Shown here: positions 35,532 through 62,435 of the stretch, piece by piece
How positions within the stretch are numbered: the first letter of the stretch is position 1
Layout: each line of letters begins with the position of its first letter
NCBI GenBank assembly: GCA_006503535.1
Contig: QYRS01000011.1
Location: 2,170,001 to 2,234,000 of the forward strand
Length of the DNA stretch: 64,000 bases
Reading direction: 5' to 3'
Source: Arthrinium phaeospermum
Taxonomy: Eukaryota; Ascomycota; Sordariomycetes; Amphisphaeriales; Apiosporaceae
The notes under the pieces: model-generated
Seen by the model: the letters and a program-made list of their open reading frames with translations, nothing else
Told to the model about the DNA's origin: nothing
Databases searched by the model: none
Made by a program: the position numbers and the translations under genes

Positions 35532-38500
35532 CTAGTTAGACGGAGCAGACTCTCGGAGTAGTTCATCGAGCATGGCCTTCGTCTTCAAGGTACTCCGGTG
35601 TGTTTTCCCCAAGACCTCGCGCTGCATCTTCCAGGTACCCTTGAACATCTTGGCGGAATCCTCGTACCGCTTGCGCAGTCTCAGATTCAAGGCCAAGCTG
35701 CAAGCCGTCGACAGCGTGTCCGGATGGTCCTGCCCCAAGAGATTGACCTGGACCTTCAGGATCTCCTCCAGGAGCTTGCCCGCGGCCTCGACCTGGCCGG
35801 AGTTGCCCAGAAAGATGGCCATGTTCTGCCGCGTGACCATGGTCTCGGGGTGGTCGAAGCCTAACAGCCTCTGCTGGCCGCGCAAAGCTAGCTCGAAGGC
35901 TTTCTGCGCCTCGTTCGCCCGGCCCTGCTCGGCGTACATGCAGGCCATGTTGGTGAGAATCCGGTGCTGCTCTGCGCTGCCGGGCCCGAGGCTCCGCTCG
36001 GTCGTCTGGGCCGCCTGCAAGTACATCTTCGCCGCGCGCTCGTGGTCGCCGCTGGCTTCGAAGGCGAGAGCCAGGTTGTGCTGCTGCCGCGCCGTGTCGA
36101 GGTGGTCGGCGCCGCGGTTCTTGGTGCACCAGTCGAGCACCCGCTGGTACTGTGCGATGGCCTGGCTGGGCTTGCCTTTCGCTCCATGTAGCAGGTCTAG
36201 TTTGGCCAGGTCGCTCGCCTTCCTAATGGTGCCGACATGGTCGCCGCCCTGCATCGTTTCCAACTCTCGGAGCTGCGTTCTTGCTATAGATGCTGGGCTG
36301 GCGTCGACTTCAGTTTTGGCGCTTTTTGCTGAGTCTCTCGATATCCTCTGAGCCCTCTTTTGGGTTTGCTCCATGACCCGTTTTGTCTCTTGAATCAGTT
36401 CGTCATTGCCAGGGGGACTGTCCTTTCGCAGCTTGAAACACCGCTCAAGGTGGTCATGGGCCGTTTTATGTTCTCCGTGGCGTATGTAGTAGTGTGCCAC
36501 CTTCCAGAGGAGGGTAGCGAGATCAGTCTTGCCTTCCGTTGTCGGTCGAAACTCGATGGCAGCCAAAGCGCAGGGCAGGATGTGACCGGATTTATCGGGG
36601 TCACCTTCGTCGAATCTGTGAACCACTTCTGCAAGCGTCTTGGCCTCCTGCGAATCCTTGTCCTCGGTTTCCCGAAGCCATGTTTGGACACAGCGACGGA
36701 TCAGGGGCGTCAGGTTGACTAGTCTGTGATCGGCAGATGGCTCAATCATGCCGTAATCCACCAGACGTGGAATCAATTTCGAAATCTCGTTCCTGAAGAA
36801 GAACGCACTCGAAATGGTCTGCATGTCCAGCGATGCAACCATGAGCAGAAGCTCACTTGCATCTATGTGATCCTTTTGCAGTAATTTAAACACAAGCCTC
36901 CAAACTCTTTGAGGTAGTTGCTCGGACCTGTTTTTCGTGGAAATCGTTTCGAGATCCATCCTATCCAAGTACTTCGACCAATGAACGCGTTTTTCCTTCT
37001 TTATGCATAGCTTTATGTATAGATTCGCTAGGGTCAATGTGCCTGCTGAGCCGCCTAGCTTCTGTGCTGCCTTGATGGATTTCTGTTTTTGGTCTTCGTC
37101 TGACGTGGACCCGCCAAGAAGTAGGAACGATGCATCTTCGTCTGTCAATCGGTCTACAGTGATGACGCATTCGGAGCGTTCTTTAGCGAGGACAGATGCT
37201 ACGGTTTTGGACCGGGTGGTGACTAAGACCTGGGCACGAGGAGGCGCCTTGGGCAGGTAATCCAGCAGCCGACTTCCAGCACTGGCCCCGGAACTCCCCA
37301 TGAGCTTCATGTCTTCTAGACCGTCCAGTACCATCAGCCACTGACCACCAACGTCTTGTCTGAGGGCGTCACGGACGGCTGCAAGCACTCCGGTCATCTT
37401 GATCTCTGCCTTGCTAATGTGGATGTTCTCGGCTATCCGTGTATACGAATGTTCAAACTGTATCGGGCAGGCAGCATTCACCCAGTGGACATGTGAGCCG
37501 GGGTGGTTGTCATGGAAGCGATGAGCATACTCGACAGCGATATGTGTTTTGCTACAGATGCCACTACTTTTTAGCTTCTCGATACTTCATACAAAGCACA
37601 GCCAACTGGAGTCAGGAGCGGGTAAACACGCGCTTACCCGTGACCAGAATCACCACGCAATACGACCAAGAATGTATCTCGAAAACTGTGCTCTAGCTTC
37701 TCCAATACCCCGCCTCTTTCCGCAAAGTGCTCTTCCTTCGCGATGGGCGCCGCCAGAGAGGGTCGATGGTTTTTGTTTCTATGTTTGAGAATCATTGAAT
37801 TCCCCGGGGTCTTGTCTGTGGGTTCAGGGGCGTCAGGCCGTAATCTTGCCGGCATTGGGTTATCTTACCCAGGTCCCTGAGGCCAATAATGTCTCTCGAA
37901 GCATCCGCCATTTCTTGGATCTTCCACACGACCGCCTTGTAATTCCCGTCCTCGCAATCTTCAAACTTGTTCAGATTGAAATGGTCCAGGGGCAATGTGC
38001 GCTTATCGTGACCGCTCAATGCTGCCGAAGACTCGGTCGCGACAAATTCCTGAATAGACAGTTAAACACTGGCTAAAAAGAGAGATTGCCTGGAGGTAAA
38101 AGGTTCTTGACTTACCAGGGGCATATTCTCGAGACCGGCAACTGCCCCAACGTTGGTCTTCTTTGACTCACAGAAGCAGAAGACCCCAGGCGCTTTGTCC
38201 CGCAAGTTGCTCACAGCTCTGGTGAAGTCGTGGACAGTGTCCTCAAGCATGTCATTGTCCTGTGTCATGCTGTAGAGGACATTGTCTTCTCTCGGCACTT
38301 CTGCTGCCACTATAGCCCGGTATACTTGCGATAGGGTGAGAGACCCGGAGCTGTTCCACACTCCTTTATTAGGAGTGCCCAGGAAGACCATGCCCGTGAT
38401 TGAATCAACTATCCCAGGATAGTCTTTCCGGGATCCACCCGCCATCGTGTAGGCCTCACATCATCGTCAGCTCATAACGCAACATGAACATCCTAGCTGC

Positions 38501-41151: not shown

Positions 41152-44100
41152 CTACCTCTGTAGCTGAGCGCCGCGTGTGAAGTTTGACCCCTCGACTTTC
41201 TGCTCAACCTTCCTTTGTTCGATGACCGTGCTGGTCTCGCCTTCTTCCCACTGCCGCCGCAGCCTCGCTCGGTGGCCAAACTCCTGGTTCCATCTCTTCT
41301 CCTCCTCGTCGCGCAGACGTTTCTCTTCCTTGGCGACGTCCTCGGGAAGACCTACCGCAATGCCGGGCTGTCGGCTTCCCAGTGGGGCATAGAACCGATC
41401 AATGGCGCCCTTGTTTCGCAGGAGCTGCTGCAATTGCCCCGTGACCTCCCATTTGCTCTTGTCGGCGGACCGTAAATAGAAAGTGGGCGACCTGTAGTAC
41501 AGGGGATGCCCGGTTCTCAAGTCGCATTCAACCATGACGTTGCGCTCATTGTTGATTTCAAGCCCGAACACGGTATCCAGGAGGGCTCGTGTGACAGGTA
41601 CCGGGTGTCTGTTTTCGAGGGCGAGGAAAAGGGCATTCTTCTGCTGCCATTGGTCAAAGATGTCGACTTTGCCGTCTTGGATGGAGCGGATAGTATCTTC
41701 GACCTGTACCGGCTTTCCCCGGCAGTCGCACCGGTAAGCGAGTTCCTGGAGAGGCGTGCGGCCCTGATGTTCGGGCATGCTGCTGGGGAAGTTCACGCCA
41801 TGCCCCTTTTTGACCAGCGCAGCTGCAACGTCACTGTGGAGATTCCTGGCGGCCTCGTGGAGGCTCCCGTCGTTGGTTTTATGCTTTGACTTGAGGAGAA
41901 GGTTGACGGTATCCAGATCTCCCGCATTAGATGCATAGAGCAAAGCAGAGCGTTGGAAACAGTCGCGGTGGTCAGTATTGGCGCCGGCTTTGATCAGCAG
42001 CTTGACAATGTCCGCTCGACGCTGCCTTGCAGCCAAAATCAGGGGGGTGGTTCCCGAGTGTTTTGCTACATGGTTCACGTTTGCTTTATTCCAATTAGAC
42101 ACCATTGCAACTGCGTCTTGGAGGGTGCTTACCATTGGCCTTGATCAGCGCTTCCACTACCCCGATGCTCACCACTTTATCTTTCGATAACGGTATCATC
42201 GCATTGAATAGCACCGTAGCCAGCTCTGTTATTCCATTGAGTCTAGTTTCAAACTCGGTTTCCATTTCGCATCCCAACTCAGCCAGTCGTTTTACTAGCT
42301 TCGCCGATGTCGGGTGAGCAGCGACGCAACAGGCAATGGGCGGGATGTGGTCGGGGGTGGAGGCTAGGTAAAAAGGGCGACATCGAGAACCCCCCTTGGA
42401 ATGCAAAATGTCTAGAAGATGCAGCACTGCGTCTTCACTTATTGTCGCCGTGATTGCTTCATGGAATGCGCATGTAGCCGCGTCACGGTCAGCGCCGCCC
42501 TTCATTAGTAAAGCTAGAACCTCCGCGTTGCCAGCTTGAACGGCGATCCGGAGGGCCTTACCGGAACGGAAACTGACATTGACCGAACCGGAATAGAGCA
42601 GGGTCTCAATCACCAACAACGACCTGCCCCCTGAACCGGCAGCCTGGACTGCGTTGAGAATGGCAGAGTTCATTGCATCTCCGCCGGCGCCTCTTTCAAT
42701 GAAGAAATTCACCAGCGAGGCGCAATCTATCTCACAATTGTTAGACATGTTGGCATTCTCCGTGAGCGAAATCATGGCGTCATTGAATGCTGCCGGACTA
42801 ACGTAGTCCGCCAGCAAGTCGATGGCGTCCTGGCTGAGCAAAGAAGCTGCGTGGCAAAAGGCTTGGTCGACGTGGGAGCCAGAAGCACCCATGCCTAGCA
42901 GGAATTGGATGACTTCGAGACCAGCGGGGGTGTTCCAGTGGACACCTGCCGATGTTGCTGAAGCAAACCCCATCAGCACGTCAGCCTCTGAAAGCGTGGG
43001 CTTGGCCAGAAATCGGAGCATGTGGTAGTCAAGGGCTCTGGCGGCCGACTCGACTGCGGTGGACTTCAATCGCCGACGGGCAGCTTGGTCAATTGATGTG
43101 ACCCCAAGTAGCAACCCGACGACATCTCTCCTTCTGCCGGAATCCGACAGCCCCAATGCGGTGGCCAATGCTGCCTCGAGAGAAGAGACGGAAGGCTTGC
43201 CGTCGAGTACGACTCGAAGCAGCAACAGGTCACGACTCTTCACCGCACCGACCACGGCTGCTCCGAAATCATGGTCGACCGATGCCTGGTACTGGACTAG
43301 AAGACGGGCCAGCTCGCAGTGGTCATTTTGGATCGCTTGGACCAAAGTTTTGTCCGTATTTGGCCCACGGGCACCTGCCTGTAAGCAGCTGTGCACTACG
43401 TCATGCTGTATTCGAGCATATGCTTCACCGACCGCGAAGTCCAATAGCTCGGGTTGTGCTCGCGATCCCTCGTTCGATGCGATGGCAATGGCTGCCTCGT
43501 TGTGCCCTGCCTGGATAGCAGACAGCAGCGCGGCTCCACGCCGGAAGGATGGTGCGGCACCATTCGCCAACAACAGGCTAACCTTTTCGGTATGCCCAAG
43601 TCTTGCCGCATCGACTAGGCCTACATCACGACATTCCTGGCATGCTCCTCGAACTCGTCGTAACAAGATGTCGACCAGCTTGTCAGGCCCCGACTCCACT
43701 GCCCGGCGGAAGCCTTGGCAGAGCGGAGACGCATCTGCCCCCCTGGCGAGCAGTATCTCGACCTTCTCGGCGTCTTGTTGATCGAGGGCGATAGGTAAAG
43801 CTTGATTGATGGCCGACTCGTCCGCGCCCTGAGCGACCAACAACAAAATGTCGGCGGAGCAATTGCGAGCCGCGTCTTCAACCAAATTGCCCCGTATGTC
43901 TTCTTGGTTACGGTTCATCAATTTGTTTAGAAGGCTGACGCTTCTACGACGCTGGCGGACGACGTCCGCATCGTTCTCCAGCAACGCCTTTACCAGACCA
44001 GGGGTTGCATTCGGGATTCCGCCTTGGCAGATATGGATCAGGGCGGCAGTGGCCTCCTTGTAGGACGCCCCATCCGAATTGTGTTTGGCGAAGCAAGACA

Positions 44101-44188
44101 TGACTTCCTTGGCCCAAGAGTAGTCATCTTCGGAAGCAGCGGATGAGACCGAGGCCACCGCCGGCCGGATCGATGGCGTGGGTGCCAT
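41152..44188 (-). CDS. Large ankyrin-repeat protein
   Basis: Two exons (44188-42133 and 42083-41152, 49 bp intron), 995 residues from MAPTPSIRPAVASVSSAA; an upstream in-frame ATG at 44329 adds 47 non-conserved-looking residues. Ankyrin-type helix pairs run through most of the chain. They are degenerate in the first 650 residues (VEDAARNCSADILLLVAQGA, LVDAARLGHTEKVSLLLANG) and canonical around the exon junction (SGTTPLILAARQRRADIVKL). The C-terminus is a Glu/Arg-rich helix (KEEKRLRDEEEKRWNQEFGH). There is no P-loop in the part seen. Related fungal proteins often carry the same repeats behind an N-terminal STAND ATPase, so this may be a shortened member, or an N-terminal part may have been lost. 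Likely a protein-binding scaffold; partners unknown. Confidence 0.8.
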
Positions 44189-44922
44189 AGTAGCGTATGG
44201 CCTCGGCAGGTATCGGATTGTCGGCAAGAGCTTTGGGAAATGTAGGCAATTGTCAAAGGCAACCGTCTGGGACCAGCTCACTTTGACGTTGACCCAAATT
44301 GCGACTCGAAATGGCCTTCGTACTTGCATGCAGGTAATTAAGTGTGATATTGCTCAGGTGTTCAGGATGTGGCTATGGGCAAAGCCACTTGCTGAACTGA
44401 AATGACCACTCAAAGATTTCCAATTCGGATACCGCTTCTTGGTCACTCGAGGCAGAGCCTCAACTATGCCCGAGTGCTACTGGTATTACACCAACCAGGC
44501 TGTGAATAGCAGTCCAGACCTTTGTTTGGGTGTGTTGGCACTTTGACCGGTGGGCATTGCATCGTTACATGCGTCGTTACACCAGCCTGAAATTCAATAT
44601 ACCATGCATATGCAGTGTACCTGTCAGCATACACCAAATACGATATTATTGGAATGCATGTGAGGCTGTCCCTGGCCAGGTACTTACTTCACATGTACCT
44701 TCGGTTGCAAGGTTCTCGGTTGCAAGGATCGCAACCATCACGTGGCAGTAGTCTACTAAGAAGAGAGAGTTCCATGTGAGCATTGTCGAGCGTTCGTCGT
44801 GGTGGTCACTGGTAAAGCTTGTCGTATCCAAGGTGGTTCCTCACGCCGTTCTCATTCTACTTACCAATATCGAGACCGTCCAAAGGCAACAGTCCTCCGA
44901 AGTTTCAGAGCTATCGCCAGCC
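44189..44922. other. Shared promoter region
   Basis: About 730 bp between divergent starts of the ankyrin gene and the charged-repeat gene. Nothing else is seen. Confidence 0.5.
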
Positions 44923-48888: not shown

Positions 48889-50721
48889 CTAGAATACGCT
48901 TTCGTGTCGCCCAAGGTTCGGCACGAGACCGTCGCCTAAATTGCCTGCTTGCAACGAGATGTAGTCCTCAGCTCGGAAGGAATGCCGAATGTCCATACCT
49001 CTCTGGGCACAAGTCACTAAGATCTTCAGGACCGAGGCCACTGTCCCTTTGGATGACAAGGTCACAAATGCGTTGACGATGGCCTCCATCTCCTCACCCC
49101 AGCCATATAGGGAGGTTTCGAACTCTGTGGCATCGTCGATGACCATGTACACGACAACGCTACCGGGAACTTGGCTCAGGAGCTCCATGAACAAGCGCCA
49201 CAGCTGCTTCACATCCTGGCGCGAGATATCCTCCAGCAAGTCGGCGCCTATAGTTAGATTCACTAGATCCCTGTCCCCTAAATGACCAAATCCTACGACA
49301 AGCTGCGCTATGAAACTCAAGAGTAGACCCCTAGGCCCACTGGGCGTATCCAGAGGGTGAGAATGGAGTCCGCAAAAGTGATACAGAACCAGCGAGTGCG
49401 GCTGCATCCGGGCGACGCTGACAAGAGTCGATGCCAGGTATGACAGTGGTGACAACTTGCTGATGGTGAGCTCCGCCATGTAGCCATCGACGAGGAGGAC
49501 GTCGTTGTGTTCGACGTTTGTCCATTCCGCGAAACGTCCCGTTGTAAGCACCCAGGCGGCCCGGCTGATGGCGCTTGGTGGCATCAAGCGCCCTTTCCGG
49601 AGGACCTCCTCTAGGTCGTTGACGAGGAACAGGGGGTCCTCGAAGTCAATCATGTGCAGAACGTCATCATAGGTGACCTGAAGTGTCTCTGGAAGATAGG
49701 TTGGTGCTTTCCACCCCGCCTCTCTCTGCGTGGCTGTCTCCAGAGCGCTCTGGGCTTGATTTGCCAATAATCTCTGCAGGTCCCCTCGGAACTCGGCAAC
49801 CTCTTGCCGAAGCTGCGTTGTAACTTCTTTGATCCTGTCTTCGATGGTGGTTGTGAGTTGCCGGAACTGCTCAGGCCTGTCGTCGTGTCTCAGTTGGAGT
49901 CCTTGGATTGCGCGAACCTGGCCGGACTGGATGGTTTCGATCCCTTGGTAGAGCCTGTCCATGTCTCCCTGGACTTGGTCGATCTTGGTACCCAAAAGTC
50001 TTGTCTCGGAGAGGTTGGTCACCACAGCTCTTCCGACAAGAACGTCAACGCGATCGGAGACCTTTCGCGCGGCCCTCTTCACCAGTCCAGTGCACTCGTC
50101 TATGGTAATGGCCTCATTTTCGGGGTGTTGTCTTATTAGTCGTCTGCCCACTTGTGAATGACATGAATAAGCATGAAAGTTACTGAACTGTGGTTAATCG
50201 GGGTCAACTTACATGAGCCTTCCTTGGGTCGCGTGAGGGTCTCCACCAGCCGTGGCACTTGCAATCTCAGTGTTTCGTACAAGTCGATGACACATTGCTT
50301 CAGCGTTTCGTCTTCGCGGTGGTTGCTAAAGGTCTCACACGCTTTGGAAAAAGTCAGGGGCATATCTTCAAAGGCTCGAACGATTTTATCTCGGTTTGTG
50401 ATTCGTTGTCGGAGCATCTGTAGTCGATTGAGGTTAGGGCCATCCGATCAATAAGGGGTTCTTAATACTCCTTACATCGAAAATATACTTTAGGCCCCCG
50501 CGCATGACACTTAGTCCGTCCTGGTCTGGGATCATATTCGTCAAAGACTGCAGGGTCATGACCACTGGTCTGTTGCGAACCAACGCCCTGGCTCGGTTGT
50601 GGTGTGTCTTCGACTCGTCATCTGTTACCGCTTGTTCCATCGAAGCTAGGACATCTTCCCACGAGCAGCGCTGGAAGGAGGAGGCGGCTGCTTCCGCGGG
50701 CGTCAAACTCAAGGTCGCCAT
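48889..50721 (-). CDS. STAND/NTPase-like fungal protein with coiled coil, partner of the AAA gene
   Basis: Three exons (50721-50476, 50417-50213, 50150-48889; introns 57 and 62 bp), 570 residues. The N-terminal about 150 residues (GGLKYIFDMLRQRITNRDK, ACETFSNHREDETLKQCVID) match the helical start seen in many fungal STAND-associated proteins. A coiled coil follows at about 190-290. The C-terminal half has the order of a NACHT/STAND-like fold: VLLVDGYMAELTISKLSPLS in place of a P-loop, HFCGLHSHPLD, then SVVVYMVIDDATEFE like a Walker B strand. No intact GxxxxGKT is present, so ATP binding is doubtful. Its start lies 302 bp from the divergent start of the AAA ATPase gene, suggesting joint expression and a shared job. 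Exact family not identified. Confidence 0.7.
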
Positions 50722-51023
50722 AGTTCTGCGCTGCAGTAGTACTGGCCGGCTTCCACCTGCAGGTTTGCGCTCACTTCCATGTTTTTCTTTTTCGCAAGGC
50801 TGGATGAGGGGTAATGCCATCCAAGTAGCAGGAGTCAGCTGACACAAACGAACGAGGGTGAGAAATCCAGCCCCCAAGCTTGACCGGCTGGTTGCTGACA
50901 ATAAATATCTCCGGTATTTCAAAACAAAGAAGAAGAAAAGAAAAGAAAAGAAGAAAAAGAAAAACAGAAGCTCCCGCATGCTTCCATCGACATTTGCCAC
51001 AAGCGCATTGAACGTAACAGGTG
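50722..51023. promoter_or_regulatory. Compact bidirectional promoter
   Basis: Only 302 bp separate the start codons of the STAND-like (minus) and AAA (plus) genes. A purine-only tract of A and G lies at about 50929-50965, a common feature of fungal core promoters. Confidence 0.5.
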
Positions 51024-54000
51024 ATGGCGACCAGCACCACCCCCGCTGACGCCGATTCAGCTGTTTCTGACGGTCAGAAGCCCAACTCCGATGATTCGGG
51101 GGGTCTCTTGCAGGAGAACCCAGATGATGATCGTGAAATGCTTCCAGAAGTCAGGTACTGCAACTGGGAAGGCTTCGTCAACCGTTTCTCTCATGATGAA
51201 CCATTGTACGCGATTGAAGCATTGTTGTCAGGGACAGATTTCGCCACGGAAATTGCAGCCGAATCGCTCCAACGTCATCGCCGCGGCGTGAGGGGTTACG
51301 AGAGAGAGCCCTCAGATGTCGTCACGCGGATTCGCCAACAGCGCGTGTCAATAGAACGCATCCGTGTTCGCTCAAAACCACTGCTGAAACTCTTCACAAG
51401 ACTGACAGAGTATTCTTGGGGAGAGAAGCCGCGAACGTTCACGCAACCGTTCAAGTACTTTGTCCACTACCATGAGACTTTCCAGCAAGAGCTACATCGA
51501 CTTCGGAATCAAGCGCTCCAGCATTCCACCTCGGCCGTGTCGCAGCACCACGATAACGCCGATCATGTCCAGTTTGAAGAGGCGGAGAGCCTTGAGCATT
51601 TGGAATGTTTTATCGACTTCGCCGAGAAGAACATCATGCATCATATACACCAATTTCGAATTAAGAGCCCTACTGAGCCTGTCATGGTCCGTTACGACCA
51701 TTTGTGGTACCTCTTCCGGCCCGGAGATCTCATCTTCGTTCCTCCAATGACCTTAAGAAAGGCTGTTAGGAGACGGGTGGCCAAGATAGGTGTCCGTGAA
51801 ACTGGCTTTGGTCACGAGAGCTCCATGCAACAAAAGATTTGGAAATTGCACGGTACATGGGGTTTGGGCAGGGGTGATGATGATGAAGAAGAGGCTGTAC
51901 AGCCGCGCTTCAGAGTCTTCGCTTATTATCTTGATTACGATGGGACATCCTATAATGCCGTATGTGAGCAGCTGGACATAGAGCAGTTCAAAGGCGACCG
52001 GGAGGTGAGGGAGTTGGCCCTATACCCGCTTCGATTCGCTAGTCATGTCGACGAGCTTATCACGGAGTCCCTGCAAACTGGCAGACTTTACTCCAAGTTC
52101 CTGAAGGAGCGGCATGTTGCCTATAATGGTTGGTCCCTTGTCACAGATCCAATGGGTGTGCCGATTGTGGACCCAAAAACTTCGTGGGATACGAAGAAGC
52201 AGATTCGGCCTGTACACATTGAAGGGGATGTAATTGTGGACTTCCTCGAAGCCTTCAACTCCGACCCCGCACACAGGAGTGAATTTTTCTCCAGGCACGA
52301 CTATGCTCCTGACCAAGCTGCGTCATATCTTACCATTGATCATCCGTTCCTTGTATGGTCAGATTCACAGCGCTCCAAACTGCTTGAATTGAAATCCGAG
52401 TTTCTCTTCCAGGCGAACGAGCTGGATGATATCGAACAAGAGGACTACTGGGCGACCGACAAGTTTCTGGATCCGGCAGCCACCCCTGAGACAAAGAAGG
52501 ACCTGGCGGAAGATGACGTTATTTTGCTTCCCCGCCGACTATTTGCATACGCCTTGGAAGAGCGGGTTTTCGTGCCGATCGATGTCCGGTTTGTGAAGTC
52601 AATCACCGTACAAGGAAGCGCATTTGAGCAGCTGCAACTACCAAACAGTTACAAGGTAATGCTCAAGGCTGCCGTCGAGTCCCACATGCGCAGACAAGAC
52701 ATCGAGAAGCAGTTGGAAAATAAGGGAGGCTACTTACGGACCCAGGACTTCATCAGAGGTAAAGGAAGGGGTTTAAGTATCATGCGTAAGTCGATGATGC
52801 ACTTGCACGAACTTCCCGTCTCTCGCCTGGTATGTTTCAGACCACTGATTAACTAAAATCGGGGTCGTAGTCCATGGAGAGCCCGGTGTTGGGAAGACGG
52901 CCACTGCCGAGGCCGTAGCCCAGTGGACGCGACGCCCTCTCTTTCCCATGTCCATGGCAGCTTTCGGTATGCCCCACGAGAGAGAAGTCAAGATGGAAAG
53001 ATTTTTTCGACTGGCACATCTCTGGGGCTGCATACTTCTTCTCGACGAAGCGGATGTTTTCCTGACAGCCAGAAACAGTACGCCGAACATGAATAACGAA
53101 CTGGTTTCAAGTAAGCAGACATGCGTCTCTCTTTTATCATCATGACATACACAGACATTACCTCGATACTTACTATGCTCATAGTATTCTTACGAAGAAT
53201 TGAGTACTTCAACGGGATATTGTTCTTGACAACCAACCGCATCGGCAAACTGGATCAGGCTCTGGGATCGAGAATACACCTCATCCTGCACTACAAGCGA
53301 CTCGGGCTGGACCAGTCTCGCGAGGTTTTCCGTCTCAACATACAGCGTTTACGCGAAGCCGAGGCGCAGCAATGCGAGCTCAGCGGCGAGAAGCCCGTGT
53401 TCGTCATGGAATCCGCCATTATGAAGTTTGCCACTGACCACTACAACAAGTCCCCCAAGGGGAAGGGGGCCTGGAATGGCCGGCAGATCCGCAACGCGTT
53501 CCTGCTGGCGACGTCGCTGGCGCGAGATGAGGCGCAGCAAGTTAACGATCCGGCTTTTCAGCCACAGTTGCGTTACGAGCACTTTGAGCAGGTCGAGAAA
53601 ATGACGCGGGAGTACGATCTTTTCCGTGCTCGCGTGCTCGGCGGTGACGATGCCAGGAAGGCCCGCTTGAATGAGGAGCGCGACGACGACTTCGACGTCG
53701 ACGAGAAGGCTGCAGGGGTCTCGCCGGGGCCATCGTCGAGATACGGCGGCATGGAACCGACAGCTTCAGTTGGTGCAAGACCCGCGCCGCCGGCATCATC
53801 CAGATCCTTGAGCGCCTTGGTGAGAGTAGGACCCAACCCTCCTCCCATGTCGTACGGCCACCCGACACAGGGTCCTCGCGGCGGGTTGTTGCCAGGGGGC
53901 TTGTCCAAAGTCAGAAATACTCACATGGCACAGTCAGGGTCGCAAGGCAGCTATGCATCCTCTCTTGAGGAGATGAGTCCTCAGTTTATGGCCGGTCCTT

Positions 54001-54128
54001 CTCACGCCAGCCATCAACAACACCTAAGCCCCTACTTGGCTCAACCAGGCCACCCACACTTCACTCCTACAGGGTCTGCATTAGATGTCGAGTCCCACCC
54101 GGAAGGATCTTCTGATGCAACCCAATAG
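51024..54128 (+). CDS. AAA ATPase with DUF7025-like N-terminal region
   Basis: Three exons (51024-52785, 52871-53110, 53185-54128; introns 85 and 74 bp), 981 residues starting MATSTTPADADSA. The N-terminal half has the fungal pattern around VRYDHLWYLFRPGDLIFVPP (DUF7025-like) and a beta-rich part. The AAA core begins after the first intron: Walker A HGEPGVGKT (about 589-597), Walker B CILLLDEADVF, sensor-1 FLTTNR and the arginine finger region SRIHLIL. All ATPase residues are present, so it should hydrolyse ATP, probably as a ring. The region between Walker A and B is shorter than in relatives. A low-complexity Pro/His/Gln/Ser tail ends the chain. Head-to-head with the STAND-like gene. The remodelled substrate is unknown. 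Confidence 0.85.
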
Positions 54129-54824
54129 CGACGGGGACAAGAAAACATATGAGGAAATCAAAGACATGGGATCCCTTATGTCATGTAAAGGTGGCTCCAG
54201 CGGATAGTAGAGGATTGGTATCAGGACACAAACATATAGGCGCAGTTCTCAAACACGGATGACCTTTGGCTAGGCTTCAGTTTCGAACAGCGGGGTTTTG
54301 GTGCGTATTAATGGAGAAGAAAAGGGGGCATTGGCCTTACGGGCTTACAGGGAGATGATAACTGTCTCTTAGTCGGTACCACTCAGAGTCCGATTGACAT
54401 ATATTACATAATCTCGGATGTTTCAACCCTTGTGATACTGGTCTTTCGTGAGACGATGTGCTTTCAGCCTTATACAGGGACAAAGAGTCGTGGTTCTATC
54501 TTGACAGTCACATGATCTGACTGGATTAATCTCTATTAAATTCGAGAAATATCGGATCACAATCTTTCCACCATCGTAAGTCGCAGTGTCATATTCCGAC
54601 GCTATCTATATTGCCGCGTACGACTTCGAAGCTATCAACAGACGTGGTTTATTTGTTATTTTTCACTGAAAATTGCTAGTTCTTAGATTTGAGAATTGTT
54701 ATTGAGTTCTTCGCGTAGTCGGTATCGGCCGTTTCATATTGAAATGGTATTCATTTGTACATAAGACCAGACATCCCGTCCATGACAAGACGCTGACCAG
54801 ATATCGCTACATCACCTCCCATCT
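54129..54824. other. Convergent intergenic region
   Basis: About 700 bp, AT-rich, between two convergent stop codons. Nothing else is seen. Confidence 0.6.
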
Positions 54825-56891
54825 CTACCACTCCGCAACCTCGCCGGCCTTCGGCTTCTGAACCCGGATGACCTTGTCGCAGTTCAGCAGGCAGAGGGGA
54901 TCCAGAGCCAATTTGAGCTGTTGGAGGTACGTTAGCAAATTGGCCAATCATTACGATAGGTGGTAAACTCAAAACAGAAATGGGTAAAAAGGCATTCATT
55001 GTGCAGGGAGAGGGAGGGAGAGAAGAACATACCTTTCGCATCGTGTCCACCGTGGTCTCGCCCAACTCGTGCGGCAAGTAATCCCGCTTGACCAGCCCGA
55101 CGCCGTGCTCGCCCGTCACGGTCCCCTCCATCTCGACCGCCTTCTTGACCATGCGGTGGACCAGGTCCTCCGCCTCGATGCGCTGCCGGTCGTTGGACAG
55201 CAGGATAATGTGGAAGTTGCCGTCGCCGACGTGGCCGACAATGGTGCCGTACATGCCGCTCCGCCGGATGTCGTCCTTGGTCAGCTCGATGAGCTCCGGC
55301 AGCCGGCTCATGGGCACCGCCACGTCGCCCGTCCAGACGCGGTCCCCCTCCTTGGCCATGGCCTGCGTGCTCCAGAGCGCCTCCTTGCGCGCGCTCCACA
55401 GCTCCGCCTTCTCCTCCTCGTTCTTGGCGAACTCGAAGCCCTGGCTGCCCGTCGCCCGCGCCAGCTTCTGCACCAGCTCGATCTGCTCCTTGACGCCGCG
55501 CTCCGTGCCGCTGAACTTGAAGAAGAGCGTCGGCGACTCCTTCCAGACCTTCTTGGTCATGCCCGCATGGTTGATGCACTTCATCTGCTCGTCGTCGAGG
55601 ATCTCGACGGCCGCCACCGGCACGCCGTCGCCCACGACGCGCGCCACGCAGTCGGCCGCCTGCCGGATCGTGCCGAAGGAGCAGACGGCGACGCTCGTGC
55701 TCTGCGGCTTGACCGTCACCTTGAGCGTGGCCTCGGTGACGAGGCCGAGGGTGCCCTCGCTGCCGATGAAGAGCTTGGTCAGGTCGTAGCCGGCCGACGA
55801 CTTGCGGGGCCGCTGCCGCGTCTTGATGACGGTGCCGTCCGCCAGCACGACCGTCAGCGAGAGGACCCACTCCCGCATGGTGCCGTAGCGGTAGGCGTTG
55901 GTGCCGCTGCAGCCGGTGCCGATCATGCCGCCAATCATGGCGCCGGGGCCCGGGTCCGGCGGGAAGAACAGGCCGTCCTCGGCCAGCTGCTCGTTCAGGA
56001 TCTCCCAGCCGACGGCGGGCTGCACGACCACGTCCAGGTCGTCCTTGTGCAGGCTGATGACCTTGTCCATGCGGCTGAAGTCGACCGAGATGCCGCCCCG
56101 GGTGGGGGTGAAGTGGCCCTCGAGGCTGGTGCCGCCGCTGTAGCCGACGACGGGGATCTTGCGCGAGTGGCAGACCTTCATGATCCGGGACACCTCCTCG
56201 GTGGTGGCGGGGTACACGATGGCGAAGGGCCTCTCCGAGTCATGGGCGCGGTAGGAGGACCAGTCCGAGGTGGAGTGTGATTGCAAGTCGTGGTCGATGG
56301 TGCTGACGTTCTCCTTGCCGACAATGTCGGCGAAGTCGGTCCAGGCGGCCTCGAGGTTGGCCTTGCCCAGGTTGTGGCGCAGGGGACGGACTTGCGAGAG
56401 GGGGGAAGTCGAGTTGGGGTCGGGATCTTGGGGATTCAGGGTGCCCATCCAGTAGGCGGCGGCGACACCGGCGACAAACACTGCACAGAAGAAGAGGGAC
56501 GGTTAGCTCTAGAGCTCTTCGCATGCCCGCATCGGTTTCATCTCCAGCTCTCTGGGGGCCAACGACTCGTCGCAGCAAGGGTTGGAGAGGGTGGCAACGT
56601 AAAAGAACGGAACGGTAGCAACATACTGAAGGTGATGGCCCAATTCCTGGAGCCGGCGCGGTTCTCTCTTTGCGCGGCGAACTTCTCTCGTTCTTTCCTC
56701 TCGCGGTGAATACGTGAGGATATACTCTCCAGCATCTGGCCCTTAAAGCTGGGACCATTGGACCCTTCCTTTTCCGTCGCATAGCGTCGTAGCGACGAGC
56801 GTGTGAGGAGGCTGTTGGTGCATCGCGATCGTGCGGCAGCAGCTGCCGCGCGAGCTGGGGAGCTCGTGGCGGCGCCGAAGCTTCGTAACAT
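54825..56891 (-). CDS. DLD1: Mitochondrial D-lactate dehydrogenase (cytochrome), FAD-dependent
   Basis: Three exons (56891-56627, 56480-55033, 54917-54825; introns 146 and 115 bp), 601 residues. The Arg/Ser/Ala-rich start (MLRSFGAATSSPARAAAAAA) is a mitochondrial presequence, followed by a membrane anchor (WAITFMFVAGVAAAYWM). The FAD-binding domain shows PVVGYSGGTSLEGH and PDPGPGAMIGGMIGTGCSGT. The C-terminal oxidase cap has GHVGDGNFHIILLSND and EHGVGLVKRDYL, with the catalytic histidines. The last exon encodes the conserved end LDPLCLLNCDKVIRV. The enzyme oxidises D-lactate to pyruvate and passes electrons to cytochrome c in the intermembrane space. The family has near relatives acting on D-2-hydroxyglutarate, but presequence plus anchor and motifs fit Dld1. 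Confidence 0.93.
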
Positions 56892-59966: not shown

Positions 59967-59973
59967 TATAAAA
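59967..59973 (+). promoter_or_regulatory. TATA element of the polyprotein gene
   Basis: TATAAAA 113 bp upstream of the ATG at 60080, followed by a C/T-rich leader typical of strongly expressed fungal genes. The start context CCACCATGCG is also strong. Confidence 0.55.
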
Positions 59974-60079: not shown

Positions 60080-62435
60080 ATGCGTTCCGCCGCTCTCTTT
60101 GCCCTGGCCGCCGCGGCCGGCACGGCCTACGCCGTCCCCGTGCTCGTCGCCAACACTCCCACTCGCGTCGTCCGCTCCGTGGTCCCCAAGTCGACCGATG
60201 CCGAGGCCGGCGCCGCCTTCGATTCCGACCGCGACCCCGAGCTCTGGAAGGTCATCGTCACCGTCGTCGATACGGTCAAGGCCGCGCTCCTCGACTTCCC
60301 GGCTGGCCAATACACCTACCCCGACTACATGGACGTAAGTCGCATTCCAACCCATGCGGGCTCTCTGCCTGCCTGCCTACCCGGTAGCAGAGTCAAAAAG
60401 GAGTAAATAATCCATATACAAAAGTGACGAATACTGACGTTGGAATAAACTAGACTTGCGTGGAGCCTTGCCGCGCCAGAGCCGCTAGTTCGGGTAACAA
60501 CTGCATGGAACAGTGCGACGCCGTCGTCGAGTACAACTTTGACAATGCCAACCTTCTGACCCTCCGCTCCACCGGCGCCGCCAAGGCCCCGCGCCTCTTG
60601 ATCCCGTTCCCCAACTATTACGAGACCAACCCCAAGAACGACGACGCCGCCAGCGCCCCCAAAGCCCGGCGCCAGTTGATCCCGGCCACCAATGTCGACG
60701 TCTCCGTCCAAGACTACGCGGCCGTAAGTCGCAATTCCATTGACCCCCCTACTTACCCTAACACCACCATCCCTCCCCCCTTGGCCGTACGGGCTGCACA
60801 ACCAAATTGCACGAGATGACGAATAATGCTAACCTTTTTGGTGGGGGTCACTACAGTCCTGCTTCAAGCCTTGCCTCGAGAGCGGCGAGGACGAGGCCGT
60901 GTGCTCGGACAAGTGCGCGCCCCTGACCGACAACATGGACACCGACGCCAAGCTCCAGGTCAGCTCCGGAGTCGACCTCGGCGCCCCCAAGGCCCGGCGC
61001 CAGTTGATCAACGTCGTCAACAACATCCTGAAGGGCCTCGGCATCGACCTCGACCTCGAACTCCGCCTCGACAACAACACCAAACTCAACCACAAATCCG
61101 AAATCGGCTCCCCTAAAGCCCGGCGCCAGTTGGTCGCACGTACTGATTCAGAAGCTATCATGGACAAGTACGTGGAGGTAAGTCGTATTTCATGGATCCT
61201 ACCTACCCTCACCATCCCAGCCTGTCCTAGAAGAGTGAAAAAGGGGCCATGATGAATGCTAACGTTTTCGTTTTGGCAATGCAGTCTTGCCTCCTACCTT
61301 GCCTCAGCGGCGAGAAAGGGGCGTTAGACGAGTGCATGCCCGAGTGCGAACACCTCCTCAACGACCTCCCCGACGAGGACAGGCGATTTACCGTCGAGAT
61401 CGAGGAGGAACTACTCGGCCTCCCCAAAGCCCGGCGCCAGTTGGTCGCACGCACTGATATGAAGGCTATCATGTCCGAGTTCGTGAACGTAAGTCGTATT
61501 TCATTAATCCTGCCCACCCCCTACCGTCTCGGCGTGTCTCGGTAGAGTGAATCAGGGGCAAGCTGGTTCTAGAAGATTGACGAATGCTGACATTTTTGTT
61601 CTGGCAATGCAGTCTTGCTTCAAGCCTTGCGTCCTCGAGCAGGGGTTCTCAGCGAAGTGCGGAGCCAAGTGCGGACAAGGCCTCAAGGGCCTCCTTGACC
61701 AGCACAAGAAATTCACCGTCACGATTCCCCGGCCCAAAAAGGAACTCGGCCCCCCCAAGATCCGGCGCCAGCTGATCGCGCTCACTGATGAAGAAACCAG
61801 AATCCAAGGCTTCTATGACGTAAGTCATATTCCCTTGGCCGTATTACCTGCTGCTGCCCCAGCCGAGTAGAAATGCTAATGTTTTTTTTTTCTGCCAAAT
61901 GCAGTCTTGCTTCAAGCCTTGCCTCGAAGACGGCGAGAACCCGCAAGCGTGCTATGACGAGTGCGAGTACATCGTCAACGACCTCCTCGACCCCGACGAG
62001 ACCGTCGAAGAGCGCGTCCAGCACCTCCTCGAAGGCCTCGAAGAAGAAGCTGAGCTCGAAGAATACCTCGACGCCCTCAAAGACCTCCAAGACGTCGTCG
62101 AAGACCACCTCGAAGCCCTCTTCGAGACCCTCATCGAAGACCACGGCCTAGAGTTGGACGGTGCCGATCAAGTCGACGAGCTCTTCGACACCGTCTCCGA
62201 AGACGTCTTCGAGAACATCCTGGAGGGCCTCGGCATCGACGACCTCGACCTCCCCCTCGACCTCGTCGACGACACCGAGCTCAGCCGCCGATCCGAAATC
62301 GGCTCCCCCGACGTCGGCGTCCCCTTCGGCTCCGGAGTCATCACATTCGTCCCCGATGATGACCCCAACTCCAAAATCACATTCATCCCCGGAGCAACCG
62401 GATGGGGGATCGAGCACGGCCACGACAACGCCTAA
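60080..62435 (+). CDS. Secreted polyprotein of repeated CX3C-CX3C peptides with Kex2-type RR sites
   Basis: Six exons, all joined between codons: 60080-60334, 60454-60723, 60857-61177, 61285-61488, 61613-61819, 61905-62435; 595 residues. Exon 1 gives a signal peptide (MRSAALFALAAAAGTAYA) and a pro-region. Each of exons 2-6 opens with Thr/Ser-Cys and a cassette C-X3-C-X9/10-C-X3-C (for example SCFKPCLESGEDEAVCSDKC). Exons 2-5 carry P-K-A/I-R-R before Q-L-I/V (cuts at 60672, 61000, 61126, 61437 and 61768). Where the exon then ends, exactly 17 residues remain to the next cassette. Kex2 in the Golgi would release peptides of 65-69 residues, one cassette each, plus a cysteine-free 42-mer. The long acidic helical tail of exon 6 is unlike the rest. 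It resembles Kex2-processed repeat precursors in layout and alpha-hairpinins in cysteine spacing; homology is not shown. Confidence 0.85.
60724..61904 (+). repeat. Tandemly duplicated exon-intron units inside the polyprotein gene
   Basis: Introns 2-5 (60724-60856, 61178-61284, 61489-61612, 61820-61904) share their ends. Donors read GTAAGTC followed by an ATT-rich stretch. The 3' parts share AATGCTAAC/AATGCTGAC followed by a T-rich tract; GGCAATGCAG ends introns 3 and 4. Exons share the cassette at the start and the RRQL site near the end. The unit of duplication was therefore exon plus intron. Confidence 0.75.

Follow-up and report, generated by a model that had tools for sequence, protein, structure and literature searches.

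The window analysed here is a 64,000-nucleotide stretch of DNA (C11:2170001-2234000) from a genome of 48.4 Mb in 19 contigs. On its forward strand lies a gene at 60080-62435, with its ATG at 60080 and a stop codon ending at 62435, whose six exons encode a protein of 595 amino acids. The five introns (119, 133, 107, 124 and 85 nt) are all of the GTAAGT...AG type and in phase 0, and each holds a branch-point-like [AG]CT[AG]A[CT] motif 21-30 nt upstream of its 3' end. A TATAAA element is located at 59967, 113 nt upstream of the ATG, and third codon positions are rich in GC (GC3 0.82). Introns 1 and 2 are independently backed by the hypothetical protein P0001 of Apiospora marii, which continues uninterrupted across both junctions; this support covers introns 1-2, and introns 3-5 rest on the DNA of the window. 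The anatomy of the gene can be read directly from the sequence, as can its repeats and motifs:

60080..60334 (+): exon 1, translated as a signal-like peptide (residues 1-18) followed by a pro-region (19-85); identity to A. marii 17/18 and 55/67
60335..60453 (+): intron 1, phase 0, GTAAGT...AG; A. marii P0001 reads through the junction
60454..60723 (+): exon 2, cassette 1 core, linker, first RRQL, N-terminal half of product 2
60724..60856 (+): intron 2, phase 0; A. marii reads through the junction
60857..61177 (+): exon 3, cassette 2 core, two RRQL sites, 42-aa Cys-less fragment, N-terminal half of product 3
61178..61284 (+): intron 3, phase 0; 80% identity to intron 4
61285..61488 (+): exon 4, cassette 3 core, RRQL site 4, N-terminal half of product 4
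61489..61612 (+): intron 4, phase 0
61613..61819 (+): exon 5, cassette 4 core, RRQL site 5, N-terminal half of cassette 5
61820..61904 (+): intron 5, phase 0
61905..62435 (+): exon 6, core of cassette 5, then the acidic helical tail, the C-terminal peptide and the stop codon

In the encoded protein, residues 1-18 (MRSAALFALAAAAGTAYA) resemble a signal peptide, as judged by eye, and residues 19-85 a pro-region. The remainder contains five cassettes C-X3-C-X9/10-C-X3-C whose loops, taken in gene order, measure 10, 9, 10, 9 and 9 residues, so the alpha-hairpinin motif C-X3-C-Xn-C-X3-C (n = 9 or 10) is present in all five, and five RRQL sites with RR at residues 157, 222, 264, 332 and 401. When the residues were shuffled 10,000 times, no shuffle contained more than one cassette or more than one RRQL, versus five of each in the real protein. 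An earlier note, made from the DNA alone, had described the 595-residue protein with its signal peptide, five cassettes and five cut sites between RR and QL; the cassettes and sites were borne out, and the N-terminus is signal-like. Exons 2-6 all open with [ST]C at the start of a cassette core, and a unit bounded by RRQL therefore begins in one exon and ends in the next. The positions are as follows:

60457..60516 (+): cassette 1, C-X3-C-X10-C-X3-C, residues 87-106; 33/35 residues identical in A. marii
60667..60678 (+): RRQL site 1, RR 157-158; RRQL also in A. marii
60860..60916 (+): cassette 2, C-X3-C-X9-C-X3-C, residues 177-195; A. marii counterpart modelled as helix-loop-helix
60995..61006 (+): RRQL site 2, RR 222-223; RRQS in A. 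marii
61011..61113 (+): repeat of the C-terminal tail DNA (62203-62308), coding most of the Cys-less fragment; repeats D6 (89%) and D7 (80%)
61121..61132 (+): RRQL site 3, RR 264-265
61288..61347 (+): cassette 3, C-X3-C-X10-C-X3-C, residues 284-303
61381..61386 (+): extra dibasic RR, residues 315-316, within product 3
61432..61443 (+): RRQL site 4, RR 332-333
61616..61672 (+): cassette 4, C-X3-C-X9-C-X3-C, residues 352-370
61706..61711 (+): extra dibasic KK, residues 382-383, within product 4; second KK at 392-393
61763..61774 (+): RRQL site 5, RR 401-402
61908..61964 (+): cassette 5, C-X3-C-X9-C-X3-C, residues 421-439
62286..62291 (+): RR 547-548, followed by SEIGSP; RR kept in A. marii

Cuts at all five RRQL sites would give fragments of 158, 65, 42, 68, 69 and 193 residues. 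Only cassettes 2, 3 and 4 are bounded by RRQL on both sides (65, 68 and 69 aa); cassette 1 would be left joined to the pro-region and cassette 5 to the long acidic tail. The release of several hairpins, as it had been proposed, is thus retained for the three middle cassettes and not for the two outer ones. The 42-aa fragment between two RRQL sites (residues 224-265) is free of cysteine and duplicates the C-terminal tail. The net charge, counted without the RR ends, is -7 for product 2, -11 for product 3 and +7 for product 4, so that two of the three are acidic. Besides the five RRQL sites there are four further dibasic sites (RR315, KK382, KK392 and RR547), which may permit additional trimming, including within products 3 and 4; neither these nor the 42-aa fragment are mentioned in the earlier note. 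RR315 and RR547 bring the RR sites of the precursor to seven in total, which would yield eight fragments if all were cut. A degenerate cut-site block follows cassette 1 (60567-60603), where both species have KAPRLLIP in place of KARRQLIP, which looks like a cut site that either disappeared or never arose.

The comparison of the full protein and its cassettes with databases, suggested in the earlier note, returned a single relative. In two protein searches, with scoring over about 8,000 candidates sharing most words, this was A. marii P0001 (431 aa); the search with the cassette units had 16 candidates and no match at E<=10, and no second copy of the precursor gene was found within its own genome. 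Identical residues were counted at 33 of 35 aligned positions in cassette 1 and 55 of 60 in product 2, which corresponds to an identity of about 93% over both, and at 38 of the 47 C-terminal residues, the acidic tail and the C-terminal peptide being kept. The likeness to this protein suggests that the host of the gene, a filamentous ascomycete, is probably Apiospora or a near relative. P0001 contains cassettes 1-2 and lacks cassettes 3-5 as annotated. With two annotated cassettes and RRQS at the second site, neither the copy number nor this site is conserved. At residues 258-290 of P0001, RRQS occurs together with a stretch resembling the tail of cassette 4 (16/20 aligned) without its cysteines, pointing either to a formerly longer protein or to exons missed in the annotation.

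The DNA repeats indicate how the gene grew. Repeat D1 (105 nt) occurs four times, and every copy runs from the cut-site region past the donor splice site and on into intron sequence. Of 107 aligned bases, introns 3 and 4 share 86. Since D1 spans the donor sites and introns 3 and 4 are alike, the units were copied together with their introns. Growth by tandem duplication follows from the same borders, as cassette cores open exons, all five introns are in phase 0 and repeats span exon-intron junctions. Repeat D3, the DNA around the cut site, is present in six copies with 78-100% identity to its reference, one of them coding PR and not RR. The Cys-less fragment, being a copy of the tail (61011-61113, 62203-62308), is a trace of gene growth in its own right.

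The copied units have diverged widely. The cassettes are 22-48% identical to cassette 1, and invariant among them are the four cysteines, kept in 20 of 20 cases, and one proline (CxxPC). Pairwise identities among cassettes amount to 9/91 in the loop and 40/88 in the cut-site tail. Over the whole unit dN equalled or slightly exceeded dS in all six cassette pairs (in the pair of cassettes 3 and 4, for instance, 0.41 against 0.38), and in the Cys core alone dN was below dS in two of the six. Between cassettes 3 and 4, protein-changing divergence (50/156 sites, rounded) was modestly above that of their introns (21/107; Fisher p 0.034). Both the dN/dS values and the contrast to the introns are suggestive only, since a pair offers about 44 synonymous sites and codon use is biased; the GC3 of 0.82 may depress dS.

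Structure prediction was conducted with AlphaFold on the A. marii protein, the window exons serving as alignment (seven rows). The A. marii model reached a mean pLDDT of 42 and a pTM of 0.26. Its best blocks were those of cassette 2 (pLDDT 72, 82 and 68), modelled as helix-loop-helix with C216/C220 on a helix at 209-222 and C230/C234 on a helix at 227-238. The alpha-hairpinin trait of two antiparallel helices with one CX3C pair each is hence predicted for cassette 2 of A. marii, and it appears weakly in cassette 1 (block means 52 and 50) and in exon 5. A model of exon 5 only had helices at 4-8 and 14-21 and no residue at or above 70; the front of the first helix, coded by another exon, was absent from it. 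Helices of the acidic tail were predicted at pLDDT 56-72, and all three RR sites of the A. marii protein were found in stretches below 50. One globular domain burying the RR sites, the outcome that the earlier note had set against its proposal, was not seen in this model of the A. marii relative, which is weak overall. These predictions of a hairpin fold and of exposed cut sites lend limited support to the hairpin reading of the cassettes.

A profile of the five cassettes was compared with PDB sequences and retrieved 12 matches at E<=10, none of which is significant alone. The best five, Tim8 (0.015), OmTx2 (0.17), kappa-KTx2.9 (0.31), Tim13 (0.5) and OmTx1 (0.55), are all helical hairpins with CX3C pairs; the remaining seven comprised six lysozymes and one fibrinogen. 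OmTx2 and kappa-KTx2.9 aligned with all four cysteines at the spacing of cassettes 2, 4 and 5, and the second CX3C was out of register in the Tim8 alignment. Three control profiles, in which the cysteines were fixed and the other columns shuffled, gave 0, 1 and 1 matches with no Tim, OmTx or kappa-KTx protein among them; in one of the three the aligner placed the gaps anew, giving 85 columns. The result supports a hairpin-like residue pattern in the cassettes beyond the spacing of their cysteines, and homology is not implied by these matches.

The small Tim proteins Tim8 and Tim13 carry CX3C pairs on a helical hairpin, as the cassettes would, and are mitochondrial chaperones with a longer loop and without signal peptide. 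The scorpion kappa-KTx2 and OmTx toxins are helical hairpins as well, with a C-X3-C-X9-C-X3-C spacing equal to that of cassettes 2, 4 and 5; homology to them is not shown, as the E values are only 0.17-0.55 and the toxins come from another kingdom. Plant alpha-hairpinins account for none of the 12 PDB matches, and none was returned by the protein database searches. The alpha-hairpinin likeness that had been noted thus extends to the cysteine layout and not to significant sequence similarity. We do not file the precursor in this family, which has been described from plants, since the only relative found is fungal and the genome contains matches to UstYa, a fungal family.

The plant precursors are described as containing 2-12 modules, a number varying among relatives (PMC7191063; PMC11591084). 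Like them, the precursor combines a signal-like peptide, several C-X3-C-Xn-C-X3-C modules and a C-terminal prodomain, and the module number differs among relatives through loss of middle or C-terminal modules (PMC7191063; PMC11591084). In contrast, the alpha-hairpinin genes of wheat, chickweed and barnyard-grass are described there as intronless and their products as cut by plant proteases, whereas the fungal precursor has five phase-0 introns and Kex2-type sites (PMC7191063; PMC11591084). The precursor therefore resembles modular plant hairpinin precursors in its presumed working, by analogy; kinship is not shown. The scorpion toxins are cited as potassium-channel blockers with the alpha-hairpinin cysteine layout (PMC7191063). 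Hairpin Loop Peptides, reported from fungi and insects in a 2026 paper, are portrayed as secreted helix-loop-helix peptides with nested disulfides, coded by single-peptide genes of about 85 aa with six mirror-placed cysteines and a 15-residue loop, and as highly hydrophobic and generally uncharged (PMC13357843). The precursor differs from this description by four cysteines per unit instead of six, charged products and a multi-unit chain of 595 aa (PMC13357843). Our literature search found no paper on a fungal Kex2 precursor of four-cysteine hairpins.

Kex2-processed repeat proteins (KEPs) include the precursors of fungal alpha-pheromone, Rep1 and ustiloxin-type peptides, and their repeats are described as identical or nearly so (PMC6339444; PMC7329392). 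A review, in its treatment of Kex2-processed effectors, places repeat precursors among these (PMC8528282). KEPs were defined by at least three repeats of 8-100 aa between dibasic sites (PMC7329392) or by at least four KR/RR fragments (PMC6339444); the precursor has eight RR fragments and RRQL-bounded units of 65, 42, 68 and 69 aa. It shares with KEPs a signal-like peptide, a pro-region, repeated units split by RR sites and a kexin-type gene in the genome, found as one P_proprotein match (C4:2033598-2033792). It is unlike them in units of 65-69 residues with four cysteines and a predicted fold. In the likeness of its units the picture is mixed, with cassettes of 22-48% identity to the first and six copies of cut-site DNA at 78-100% identity to their reference. 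The string "cystein" occurs four times in the main text of PMC6339444, where it belongs to two-Cys pheromones and the list of abbreviations, and zero times in those of PMC7329392 and PMC9769878. UstYa matches number at least 24 across the genome, and none among the matches listed lies on contig C11, where a RiPP of the dikaritin type (ustiloxin, epichloecyclin) would have a tailoring gene of this family beside its precursor. Of the likeness to Kex2 repeat precursors drawn before, the Kex2-type multi-peptide layout stands and the RiPP tailoring context does not.

We consider it probable that the protein is a secreted multi-peptide precursor releasing hairpins outside the cell. The chain would enter the secretory pathway, and every cassette would fold into a small antiparallel helix-loop-helix with two disulfides, expected as C1-C4 and C2-C3. 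A Kex2-type convertase would cut after exposed KxRR within flexible linkers and free at least three hairpins, those of cassettes 2, 3 and 4 (65, 68 and 69 residues before trimming). Kex1-type carboxypeptidases trim basic ends and N-terminal Gln can cyclise; both steps could apply to these products. We infer the cleavage, the disulfides and the Gln cyclisation, and the cutting together with the hairpin fold appears quite likely. Kex2 is reported to prefer Leu or another aliphatic residue at P4, against which the precursor sites have Lys (PMC8528282). One transcript would give rise to a mixture of differently surfaced hairpins, since its units share the scaffold and the cutting motif but differ in loops and charge. 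Such hairpins would most likely target competitors or a plant host, an outward-acting role that we propose tentatively, at slightly less than even probability. Given net charges of -7, -11 and +7, a uniform cationic membrane-active role is unlikely, and a hairpin mixture with differing targets fits better.

Other readings of the gene were weighed against the same observations. An uncut secreted multi-domain protein, for instance of the wall or matrix, in which the RR stretches are linkers, would account for cassettes 1 and 5 without bounds on both sides and for the acidic tail and C-terminal peptide, kept in A. marii (38/47), which would fit a separate role for the tail. We regard it as unlikely, as RRQL recurs five times in identical register in stretches predicted to be unstructured in A. 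marii, and random linkers would not retain the same four residues. Quite unlikely, too, is a KEP-type signalling precursor whose short spacer and tail peptides (the 42-aa fragment, the SEIGSP peptide and the FTV...KARR pieces) are active, the hairpins only aiding folding or secretion. The extra dibasic sites would indeed free short pieces, and the segment that makes up the SEIGSP tail occurs twice, the tail being its second copy, which A. marii retains along with the RR; however, the strongest constraint among the repeats falls on the cysteines and CxxPC, and cassettes 1-2 are almost unchanged in A. marii.

A young gene under weak constraint, expanded by slippage and without settled product, would be consistent with one relative from protein searches, with dN close to dS between cassettes and with the three cassettes lacking from A. 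marii as annotated. Yet every one of the 20 cysteines is intact, as are the five frames, the five introns and the five RRQL sites, and the identity between both species is about 93% in cassette 1 and product 2, so that we hold this reading to be very unlikely.

A further reading extends the precursor to a modular peptide library, a locus that makes or evolves new hairpins combinatorially by exon skipping or unequal crossing-over. Every intron splits its hairpin at the same place, immediately before the [ST]C of the Cys core, and as these introns share phase 0, the front helix of one unit could be joined to the core of another with frame, cysteines and Kex2 sites intact. A shared intron phase is expected from duplication alone, which counts against such a library, as do the junctions of the annotated A. 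marii protein, which lie off these exon borders; its probability seems low. If true, it would be a fungal counterpart of venom-peptide diversification.

The favoured reading, a precursor of secreted hairpins, bears on what Kex2 processing may deliver in fungi, where repeat precursors have so far mostly been known for short, near-identical linear or cyclised peptides. If folded two-disulfide hairpins are carried, the Kex2 system would be joined to a scaffold of plant defence and scorpion toxins, apparently reached independently. The gene offers a compact, testable case of secreted peptides diversified by exon duplication with scaffold and cutting site kept. As the units differ so much, the class could escape searches based on repeat similarity.

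The surroundings of the gene were viewed in a Pfam scan of 22 of the 65 ORFs of the window and four of the five ORFs of L007, and no peptide-tailoring gene near the precursor was suggested among the scanned ORFs. To its right are a Tri-helical/Clr5-type gene and a fungal transcription factor, and its nearest neighbour on the left is:

54754-56502 (-): FAD-oxidase gene (Pfam)

Neighbouring NLR-like genes lie at 35535-37586 (-), 41155-44353 (-) and 48892-50193 (-), with TPR and weak NB-ARC/NACHT, ankyrin repeats and NPHP3_N. At 51018-54125 (+), a fungal AAA+ lid domain comes after DUF7025, and the two ORFs concerned are probably parts of a single AAA ATPase gene.
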